Source: a virus. Taken from it: 31,722 nt of DNA. Location of the stretch: IMG/VR virus record IMGVR_UViG_3300028837_000761, positions 1-31,722 of that record; one strand, written 5' to 3'. The notes beneath the pieces were generated by a model. It made no database searches, had not been told where the DNA came from, and saw only the letters and a program-made list of their open reading frames with translations. A program made the position numbers and the translations under genes. Positions 23,521 through 30,345 of this stretch are shown here, in pieces; position 1 is the stretch's first letter; each line of letters opens with the position of its first letter.

Positions 23521-24137
23521 TAGATCCTCGGGGTGCGGGGCCTGCGCCGATCACGCAACCTCCCGCGACTTCCCACCTTACGGGCCTGGCTCGCGGCCGG
23601 GGCGGCTCGCCGCGGGGTGGGCTTCGGGGTCGAGAGGCCGCGATACTGATCCGCCTGAGATTTCATCTTCATCGCCCGCTGCATCGTGTCTCCGGTGTCC
23701 CGGACGCGCTTCCGCACCCTCGCAGCGGATGCGGCTCTCTTGGCCGCCGCCGCGCGGCCCGCCTGAGCGCGAACCGCCGCTCCCGCCCGCGGCATCACGG
23801 CGGGCTTGGCTGCCGGCTTCGCGGCCGTTCCGAAGGCACCGCCCTTCCGGGGACCCGGCTTCGCGGCCGTTCCGAAGGCACCGCCCTTCCGGGGGGCCGG
23901 CTTCGCGGCCGTTCCGAAGGCACCGCCCTTCCGGGGGGCCGCACCCGTGTTCTTCGGGGGACCCTTCACGGTGGACCGGGCTCCCTTCTTTACGGCTTGT
24001 TTGGCTCCCTGCTTGGCGATCTGCTTGGTCCCCTGTGTGGCCGCCTTCTTGGCCGCTTCTTTGGCCGCCTTCTTGGCCGCTTCTTTGGACGCCTTCTTGA
24101 TTGCCGTGCTGAATACGCCCGAGATGATGCTGGTCAT
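23520..24137 (-). CDS. Histone H1-like Lys/Ala-rich basic protein with tandem repeats
   Basis: 205 residues, extremely basic. The N-terminal 55 residues are Lys/Ala repeats (KKASKEAAKKAAKEAAKKAA) of the kind found in the C-terminal tails of histone H1 and bacterial H1-like or AlgP-like proteins. Residues 67-107 hold three copies of a 14-residue unit (PRKGGAFGTAAKPA/G). The C-terminal 80 residues are Ala/Arg-rich helix then an Arg/Pro tail. It probably binds DNA or RNA by charge, perhaps to compact phage DNA or aid packaging, as it lies beside the terminase genes. Low-complexity composition makes homology calls unreliable. Confidence 0.6.
   Translation of the reverse strand: MTSIISGVFSTAIKKASKEAAKKAAKEAAKKAATQGTKQIAKQGAKQAVKKGARSTVKGPPKNTGAAPRKGGAFGTAAKPAPRKGGAFGTAAKPGPRKGGAFGTAAKPAAKPAVMPRAGAAVRAQAGRAAAAKRAASAARVRKRVRDTGDTMQRAMKMKSQADQYRGLSTPKPTPRRAAPAASQARKVGSRGRLRDRRRPRTPRI
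23813..23938 (-). repeat. Three 42-bp tandem repeats inside the H1-like gene
   Basis: Units at 23813-23854, 23855-23896 and 23897-23938. The last two are identical and the first differs in its final two bases (AC for GG). Each encodes 14 residues (PRKGGAFGTAAKPA-type). High nucleotide identity implies recent expansion by slippage or recombination. Confidence 0.85.
24039..24086 (-). repeat. Two 24-bp tandem repeats (Lys/Ala segment)
   Basis: The 24-bp unit GGCCGCCTTCTT-GGCCGCTTCTTT occurs twice in a row and a third, diverged, partial copy follows. It encodes the repeating Lys-Lys-Ala-Ala-Lys-Glu-Ala-Ala pattern of the H1-like protein. Confidence 0.75.
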
Positions 24138-28283: not shown

Positions 28284-28523
28284 CACTCCTCCTAGTTGTG
28301 TGTTGCGGGGCTGTGGGCCATTAAACGGATGAGATTCCCTAGCGGATCTCGTCTCACCAGGGGGAGCGGTCCGCCCAAGCATGGCCCACCTTTTCCGAGC
28401 TGCCCCGCTCGCCCAGTGGGACTATCCGCTCCGCGTTTCACATCGAATCTCCTACCGCGGGACGCGAGGGCGAATAGAGGGGAAGGGAAAGAGCCCCCCG
28501 CGCCCCGCGGCATCATCGGGTTG
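28284..28523 (-). other. 240-nt gene-free gap with inverted repeats
   Basis: This is the longest gap inside the minus-strand gene row. No convincing gene is present: a 74-codon open frame (28292-28516) lacks an SD. The gap holds an imperfect 20-bp palindrome (28331-28350), a 9-bp inverted repeat (GTGGGCCAT 28313-28321 and ATGGCCCAC 28381-28389) and a short palindrome (28366-28374). No strong sigma70 promoter is visible. It probably has a regulatory role for the genes from 28283 onwards. Confidence 0.45.
28331..28350. promoter_or_regulatory. Imperfect 20-bp palindrome
   Basis: GAGAT...ATCTC arms around a central CTAG, with mismatches at two positions. It lies about 50 nt upstream of the start at 28283 and is a candidate protein-binding site. 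It shares no arms with the palindromes at 18905-18958. Confidence 0.35.
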
Positions 28524-28946
28524 TCAGAATGGGATCGGCTGCCGCAGATCCCTCGCGAGCTGCCTCAATCCCTTCATCGTGTTGGCAATCTCGGTGACTT
28601 GGAAATCCAGGAGACGCTCGATTTCGGTGGCAATCCAAAGGGTCGCAGTCGACCCTGGTCCATGACGGGTTGCGGCCCTACGCCACGATGGAAATGCGGT
28701 CCGTTCCTGTTCGAGTCGCACCCCAGGCGTCGGACCCGGGATCACCTCGCTCGTGTGTGGATCACCGTCCGCGCCACAAGGGGGTGGAGGCTGGACCCCC
28801 AGCTCCTCCCGCACCCGATCCCGCAGCACATCCAGCGCGCCAGCGACCGGCTCGCCAGGCGCGACCTCGGCCGTCATCTCAACCGCCTGGTGAGAGAACC
28901 CGGGGCCGCTCTTCAGCTCGCGATAGGACACCTGGTTGATCCTCAT
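28524..28946 (-). CDS. Hypothetical protein interrupted by a 60-bp repeat
   Basis: 140 residues. ATG 28946 makes an ATGA overlap with the Acb2-like gene and has CCGGAGA upstream. The N-terminal part (SYRELKSGPGFSHQAVEMTA, then helix LDVLRDRVREELG) looks like a compact domain. A polar Pro-rich segment follows (51-75). Residues 85-103 (FPSWRRAATRHGPGSTATL) are encoded by a perfect copy of the 60-bp sequence also found at 29198-29257, here read in a different frame. The C-terminus (IATEIERLLDFQ to IPF) is helical. The repeat may have inserted here. Function unknown. Confidence 0.5.
   Translation of the reverse strand: MRINQVSYRELKSGPGFSHQAVEMTAEVAPGEPVAGALDVLRDRVREELGVQPPPPCGADGDPHTSEVIPGPTPGVRLEQERTAFPSWRRAATRHGPGSTATLWIATEIERLLDFQVTEIANTMKGLRQLARDLRQPIPF
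28636..28695. repeat. 60-bp direct repeat, copy 1
   Basis: Identical over 60 of 60 bases to 29198-29257. Starts CAAAGGGTCGCAGTCGACCC and ends CCACGATGGAAAT. It contains a perfect hairpin (GGGTCG-CAGT-CGACCC, 28640-28655). Flanking DNA shows no further similarity. The copy lies in the coding frame of the 28524-28946 gene. Confidence 0.95.
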
Positions 28947-29167
28947 CGCGTCTCCGGGTTCCTGGCGACCGCCGCGGAGGCCCACATCTTCGCCTCCTCC
29001 AGCTTCGTCATCACGAGCGCCTTCTCGCGCCCGTCTGGGCAGATCGCCTCGATCGCCTCGGCCAGGATGATGAACTCCTGTGTCAGCCGCTTATGCTTCT
29101 GTGCGCCCTTCTCGCTGGGCGCGTGGTAGCTGAAGCGGTCTTGGATCTCGTTCATGGTCAGCGCCAT
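28943..29167 (-). CDS. Acb2/Tad1 hairpin-domain protein (predicted anti-CBASS cyclic-nucleotide sponge)
   Basis: 74 residues, SD CAGGAGAG. The whole protein matches the small helical hairpin family known as Acb2/Tad1 (formerly an uncharacterised phage DUF): RFSYHAPSEKGAQKHKRLTQ (11-30) followed by a long helix and ICPDGREKALVMTKLEEAKM, then WASAAVARNPETR. Acb2 proteins form oligomers that bind the cyclic di- and trinucleotides made by CBASS and so block abortive infection. Tyr14 and Lys26 lie where Acb2 ligand-binding residues (Tyr and Lys) are expected. It is encoded among early genes between a nuclease-like gene and an unknown gene. Family assignment is good; ligand range is not known. Confidence 0.82.
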   Translation of the reverse strand: MALTMNEIQDRFSYHAPSEKGAQKHKRLTQEFIILAEAIEAICPDGREKALVMTKLEEAKMWASAAVARNPETR

Positions 29168-29168
29168 A

Positions 29169-29672
29169 CTACTCTCCTGTGTTGGTCACGATGTCAGCAA
29201 AGGGTCGCAGTCGACCCTGGTCCATGACGGGTTGCGGCCCTACGCCACGATGGAAATCGAGCAGGTACTGATGCTTCTCCCAGTCCTCGCGAGTCGCGTA
29301 CCCACACGCGGTAATCGTTGCCGGGGCTGAACGAAGACAGAGCACGGCCAGATCGAAGTCGCGCGCACCCTGGTACACCGGGATAATGAGTCTCCCGCCG
29401 CCGTAGATCGTCGCCTTCACCTCTACTCGCCTACCATCCGGGAGTACGAGATCGACGCCACCGTCACCGCCGGCCCCGTGGTCCTCGAATACCGGGTCCT
29501 CGGGGATGCCGACCCACTCGCAGACCGCCCACTCCGAAGCGACCCCGATACGCTCATTCCGCACTCGATCCGGGCCGACCGTCCGGGTTTGCGGATGGTT
29601 CGCAATGCGGCGGTCCGCCTCCGTCACGATCCGCTCAACCTCGGGCCATGAGAACCTACGCTCGAATCTCAT
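29169..29672 (-). CDS. PD-(D/E)XK nuclease-like protein
   Basis: 167 residues from ATG 29672 (ATGA overlap; a GTG 4 codons earlier is an alternative). The core shows an early Glu47 in ASEWAVCEW, then GGVDLVLPDGRRVEVKAT with Asp74 and Glu84-x-Lys86, the D and E-x-K residues of the PD-(D/E)XK fold. This fold is used by restriction, Holliday-junction and host-DNA-degrading nucleases. Residues 140-158 (FHRGVGPQPVMDQGRLRPF) are encoded by copy 2 of the 60-bp repeat. The product could degrade host DNA, process phage DNA or act in defence or counter-defence; which is unknown. Confidence 0.7.
   Translation of the reverse strand: MRFERRFSWPEVERIVTEADRRIANHPQTRTVGPDRVRNERIGVASEWAVCEWVGIPEDPVFEDHGAGGDGGVDLVLPDGRRVEVKATIYGGGRLIIPVYQGARDFDLAVLCLRSAPATITACGYATREDWEKHQYLLDFHRGVGPQPVMDQGRLRPFADIVTNTGE
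29198..29257. repeat. 60-bp direct repeat, copy 2
   Basis: Identical to 28636-28695 and in the same orientation, 562 bp away. It lies near the 3' end of the nuclease-like gene and includes the hairpin (29202-29217). The frame used here differs from that in copy 1. Confidence 0.95.
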
Positions 29673-29908
29673 TCTGGCACCCACTCGATCTCGACGTAGA
29701 CCTCTCTACGCAGAACCTTGTGACAGACGTAGAGCACCTCATGCACATCGTCGTCATCCTCGGCCTGAGCCAGGTCGACGTTCTCGCCCACGCGCGGGGC
29801 TGCATCCACGGCATAGGAGCCGATCTGGCGGCCCTCCAGGTCGGGGTGCCTCGACAACTGCAGCGGGGACGCCCCCGCGTGATCGCGACACCAGACGACG
29901 AGTCTCAT
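29669..29908 (-). CDS. Small hypothetical protein
   Basis: 79 residues, start in an ATGA overlap with the deoxyribosyltransferase-like gene. Strand-rich: MRLVVWCRDHAG at the start, a Gly/Ala middle (IGSYAVDAAPRVGENVDLAQ), an acidic patch EDDDD (about 51-55) and VLYVCHKVLRREVYVEIEWV at the end. The pattern suggests a small beta-barrel or alpha/beta fold. No family recognised. Coupling on both sides supports it as a gene. Confidence 0.5.
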   Translation of the reverse strand: MRLVVWCRDHAGASPLQLSRHPDLEGRQIGSYAVDAAPRVGENVDLAQAEDDDDVHEVLYVCHKVLRREVYVEIEWVPE

Positions 29909-30345
29909 AGGCGCAGCGCCTCCACCACCTCATCCATGTCCAGGCAGAGGTGGTCGATGAGCCCGTACATCAGCTCGGGCTCGCCGTTCGCGAGCAGCGC
30001 GACAGTGCGCTTGTGCGCGCCGGCCATGAATCCGATCTCCAGGTGCGAGGAGCTGCCCGCCGGCAGCACCAGCAGCCCAGCGTCGCAGCCCAGTAGCGCC
30101 TGGAAGTCCCGCCGGAAGCCATCCTGTGCGACCGGGTGATTCAACCCTTCGCGAAGCTGCTCGGGGCTCCACCCCCTCCAGTCCGGGTCGATCTCCGACC
30201 AGTGGAAGCCCTCATTGCCGGGCGCGGGGTGTCGGAAGTCGTAGACCCCGAACCCCTCCGAGCGCAGCCGCATTACGACGGGCTCCTGGATCGGATTGCG
30301 CCAGGACGACGCGACGTAGATCAGCGGTCGAGCGAGGTCGCCCAT
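29905..30345 (-). CDS. Nucleoside 2-deoxyribosyltransferase-like protein
   Basis: 146 residues. ATG 30345 overlaps the upstream stop (TGATG) and has AAGGAGGT before it; the longer frame upstream is Gly/Arg shadow sequence. IYVASSWRN (9-17) is the family's N-terminal strand motif, VYDFRHP follows (34-40), and LLVLPAGSSSHLEIGFMAGA (91-110) holds the expected catalytic Glu103. These enzymes transfer deoxyribose between bases or hydrolyse nucleotides; in phages they may alter nucleotide pools, support base modification or act on signalling nucleotides. Reaction and substrate cannot be fixed from sequence. Confidence 0.72.
   Translation of the reverse strand: MGDLARPLIYVASSWRNPIQEPVVMRLRSEGFGVYDFRHPAPGNEGFHWSEIDPDWRGWSPEQLREGLNHPVAQDGFRRDFQALLGCDAGLLVLPAGSSSHLEIGFMAGAHKRTVALLANGEPELMYGLIDHLCLDMDEVVEALRL

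Follow-up and report, generated by a model that had tools for sequence, protein, structure and literature searches.

Genes and features of the locus

The window analysed here is the whole of one IMG/VR virus record, a single contig of 31,722 bp from an uncultured tailed phage. It contains an accessory cassette of three genes, P0002, P0003 and P0001 from upstream to downstream, which carries two copies of a 60-nt sequence (Table 1). All genes around the repeat, including the two that host it, lie on the minus strand.

Table 1. Coordinates in the window of the cassette, its genes and the two copies of the 60-nt repeat
Feature	Position	Strand	Remarks
Accessory cassette P0002-Acb2-P0001	28507..29671	-	Swapped in the nearest relative for other DNA (see text)
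P0002	29169..29672	-	167 aa; PD-(D/E)XK nuclease-like accessory gene with GVDL...VEVKAT motif; likely repeat donor
Copy B of the 60-nt repeat	29198..29257	-	3' end of nuclease-like P0002, read as FHRGVGPQPVMDQGRLRPF
P0003	28943..29167	-	74 aa; Acb2 anti-CBASS sponge homologue, between the copies
P0001	28524..28946	-	140 aa; function unassigned; predicted structure with folded N-terminal domain, disordered linker carrying copy A, and C-terminal helix
Copy A of the 60-nt repeat	28636..28695	-	Inside P0001, read as FPSWRRAATRHGPGSTATL; in the linker predicted to be disordered

P0003 matched Pfam family PF24729 (E 1.4e-15; 57.7 bits, above the curated cut-off of 27), phrog_1454 (E 8.9e-22), and PDB entry 9ptq, "Acb2 homolog 43" (E 0.0016). 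With its homologues it has in common the invariant R-E-x-x-L-x-x-T-x-L-E and W-A residues of the Acb2/Tad1 hairpin family. Judged by these matches, P0003 is a clear homologue of Acb2 anti-CBASS sponges and is predicted to sequester cyclic nucleotides and thereby block CBASS. A previous sequence-only reading of this DNA had recognized the repeat itself and had overlooked the Acb2 gene between its copies.

The two genes that host the repeat are less readily placed. P0002 starts with an ATG at 29672 and carries the D...ExK motif of PD-(D/E)XK nucleases; this motif and the order of secondary-structure elements are the basis for describing it as nuclease-like, and sequence searches of Pfam, PHROG, NCBIfam, and PDB returned no match. 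Its structure, predicted without an alignment, had a pLDDT of 40, too poor for placing copy B in the fold. P0001 had no match in Pfam, PHROGs, or NCBIfam. Residues 55-116 of this protein, which include copy A, are predicted to be disordered, and the copy A stretch has a pLDDT below 50. Homologues of either gene were sought by tblastn in phages (and, for P0002, in plasmids), as well as among 36 terminase relatives and 80 Acb2 loci, and none turned up. Scans for peptide patterns in viral contigs (and, for P0002, in genomes) were empty or gave chance matches. Candidate homologues of these genes in L003 and L032 were rejected as short chance matches.

An exact repeat read in two frames

The two copies are 100% identical over 60 nt and lie in direct orientation at a spacing of 562 nt. 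The match ends sharply on both sides, and the flanks of the two copies have no further similarity, just as the sequence-only reading had described. Given the length and composition of the window, about 4e-26 such exact pairs would be expected by chance (BLAST E-value within the window, 8e-26), and a chance origin is excluded. The window holds these two copies and no third. Copy B lies nine residues from the C terminus of P0002, and about 30 nt separate it from the start codon of Acb2 downstream.

P0001 and P0002 read the repeat in different frames, as had been noticed before, and shared protein ancestry is thereby ruled out as its cause; the earlier argument that protein homology fails to account for the repeat holds. 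Two other points required adjustment. The 60 nt do amount to 20 codons, but the claim that the host frame was kept applies only if the event was an insertion, and it may instead have been a replacement. A hairpin is also present, with a 7-bp stem and a 4-nt loop rather than the 6-bp stem first described, and its folding is unexceptional (z -1.5; an equally good fold was reached by 14 of 200 shuffled sequences).

A possible exchange slot in a close relative

The nearest relative found, L004, has a terminase 90% identical in protein to that of the window. Its alignment to the window runs to the stop codon of the gene that precedes P0002 and resumes at about 28506. Between these points (L004:1-549), unrelated sequence of about 520 bp takes the place of the cassette and carries an RyR-domain gene (PF02026, E 2.7e-11). 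According to a recent report, RyR-domain proteins of phages degrade ADP-ribose immune signals or sequester them (PMC13232231). Since one of these two genomes carries an Acb2 cassette in this slot and the other an RyR-domain gene, the slot looks like a possible site at which genes that counter nucleotide-signal immunity are exchanged.

Other features of the window were also observed. A gap of about 230 bp between P0001 and the next gene (28292-28516) is partly conserved in L004 (CCTCGCGTCCCG...CTGGGTGAGCGGGGC) and is perhaps a regulatory region. The stretch 29905-30345, which lies two genes upstream of the block with the repeat, encodes a nucleoside deoxyribosyltransferase-like protein (phrog_12607, E 2.9e-43); the long open reading frame that reaches 30831 at this gene probably has a wrong start. 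At 23812-23941, three tandem 42-bp units lie in a gene for a small basic Ala/Lys-rich protein, and L004 has a similar yet different low-complexity gene at the matching site.

Age and direction of copying

Sixty sites without a difference place the divergence between the copies below 4.9% per site (95% upper bound), whereas most segments shared by the window and L004 are 69-87% identical, that is, 13-31% divergent. By this comparison, the copying event long postdates the split from L004, unless some constraint that is not apparent here has kept the repeat conserved. The proposal of a recent DNA-level copying event, made when the repeat was first noticed, is supported by this bound.

The direction of copying was assessed with a coding score based on codon statistics, for which 12 confident genes served as the training set; a typical in-frame segment scores about 0.39. 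Read in the P0002 frame, the repeat has a score of -0.29, among the lowest 2% of in-frame segments, and its GC by codon position is 0.84/0.47/0.58. In the P0001 frame, it scores -0.71, which falls in the bottom 0.4% of true in-frame segments and is like out-of-frame DNA, and codon position 2 is abnormally the GC-richest. The N and C parts of P0001 have coding-like scores in one common frame (0.37 and 0.35, respectively), and the linker scores -0.28. These codon statistics favour P0002 (copy B) as the donor and P0001 (copy A) as the recipient. The repeat scores low in P0002 as well, and its antisense frame is the best of all (0.04), so an origin outside the two genes is possible for both copies. 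With no homologue of either gene found in the searches above, codon statistics are the whole basis for this direction, and the event may have been an insertion or a replacement.

Origin of the repeat

We consider it probable that the repeat arose in a recent, single, short-range DNA copying event, most likely from the 3' end of P0002 into the disordered linker of P0001. The 60 nt of copy B would have been copied from the nuclease-like gene by a template switch during replication or repair and would have landed, as copy A, in the linker region of a gene two positions downstream. There the copy would have been tolerated because its length keeps the frame, the new frame is free of stops, and the target is a disordered linker. 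A dedicated function for the repeat would not be needed. The analysis found no further copy, promoter, terminator, Rfam family, or unusual hairpin, and a single event therefore fits better than a mobile unit or a conserved site. Counting against the copying model, the repeat junctions have no direct microhomology. A 10-bp inverted match between the copy A flank and the copy B junction (28616-28625; GCTCGATTTC) was considered as an explanation and set aside as weak, as 2% of random placements reach it and alone it fails to explain a direct copy.

The placement of the copies invites a different explanation, which we regard as doubtful: that they have been kept since they allow recombination to remove Acb2 or to amplify it in tandem. 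The copies do lie in direct orientation around an anti-defence gene. In computed recombination products, deletion removes Acb2 together with the N part of P0001 and leaves the nuclease readable through the repeat into a new tail, while unequal exchange multiplies Acb2 in a unit that retains the gene and its upstream region. A plausible prediction is that such exchange between the copies might remove Acb2 or raise its copy number. In phage T4, amplification of tifA, within the dmd-tifA segment, has been attributed to recombination that likely used short homologous sequences flanking the locus (PMC9391042). Two tandem Acb2-family genes are also present in L049 (L049:2464-2999), the sole case among the 80 Acb2 loci. 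However, direct repeats of at least 20 bp around Acb2 were found in none of the 80 other loci, the deletion product would break P0001, and neither a deletion nor an amplification variant was observed. That the copies form a recombination-ready frame, by which the lineage drops its anti-CBASS gene or raises its copy number, with read-through fusions on either side, is in our estimation unlikely.

There is similarly a slim chance that a small mobile or repetitive unit of outside origin entered P0001 and P0002 in separate insertions. The low coding scores in both gene frames, the higher antisense score, the exact identity of the copies, and the length of 20 codons are all in keeping with such a unit. 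A small dispersed mobile repeat would have multiple copies in one or several genomes, but the exact 60-mer had no match in 2.9 million IMG/VR contigs, and its 28-nt core, with one free position allowed, was absent from the same contigs and from 84,980 prokaryote genomes. The 36 terminase relatives and 80 Acb2 loci likewise contained no copy; a survey of direct repeats in the relatives found tandem coding repeats only, and a distant blastn search with the region of copy A met nothing but chance matches in plasmids and phages. The flanks have no visible target-site duplication or terminal inverted repeats. With only two copies known, the mobile unit that the sequence-only reading had suggested, and the further copies that it would imply in phage genomes and metagenomes, find no support in these collections. 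A bacterial intergenic repeat, suspected from look-alike peptides, was dropped after the 28-mer scan of the 84,980 genomes proved empty.

We also give little credence to copy A as a chimeric join from metagenome assembly. The window is a single IMG/VR contig, no second genome with copy A was found, and repeats of about 60 nt fall within the k-mer range of assemblers. On the other hand, P0001 is coding-like in one frame on either side of copy A, as expected of one real gene. Typical sequencing reads are longer than 60 nt, so the repeat should be resolvable in assembly. Judged from the assembled sequence, an assembly error at copy A is unlikely.

Least of all do we expect a constrained functional site, whether a regulatory element, a packaging or recombination site, or a CRISPR-repeat mimic RNA: copy B does lie a short distance upstream of Acb2, a hairpin can form in each copy, and phages encode solitary CRISPR-repeat mimics (Racr) close to anti-CRISPR genes (PMC10651486), but the hairpin energy is ordinary, no promoter- or terminator-like site was found in the repeat, an Rfam search of the repeat gave no RNA family even at E 5, no gene starts after copy A, 60 nt exceeds the usual CRISPR repeat length, and no relative conserves the repeat, so that the constrained site proposed earlier is very improbable.

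Meaning and comparison with known systems

On present evidence, the repeat is a modest curiosity that points to neither a new mobile element nor a new signal. Its setting is a fast-changing gene slot, in which the copies flank a small anti-immunity gene and sit within two unrelated genes. If it is a copying accident, it would be a clean, datable case of a phage gene gaining 20 residues through an old sequence read in a new frame, and it would show how short direct repeats around counter-defence genes can originate.

Several known systems offer points of comparison. Rickettsia palindromic elements are short DNA segments that occur in frame within protein-coding genes, and the repeat resembles them in this respect. 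It is shorter, however, with two copies only and no family in the genomes searched. Racr solitary CRISPR-repeat units are, like the repeat, short hairpin-bearing phage sequences near a counter-defence gene (PMC10651486). A unit of this kind would be expected to match a known CRISPR repeat and to lie between genes, whereas the repeat in the window lies inside coding sequence, measures 60 nt, occurs in two identical copies, and matches no CRISPR repeat family in Rfam. The T4 dmd-tifA locus likewise has short direct homologies around a counter-defence gene as a possible driver of its gain and loss; amplification there was observed in experiments (PMC9391042), whereas the window shows just the repeat and one Acb2 gene, and no variants were seen. 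If Acb2 did prove to be lost or multiplied by exchange between the copies, the locus would be a natural counterpart to the T4 tifA experiments. Short templated duplications are a known outcome of template switching or illegitimate recombination. Although the junctions here are without clear direct microhomology, unlike those of such duplications, the repeat has in common with them an exact short copy, a short distance, sharp ends, and a lack of element-like features.
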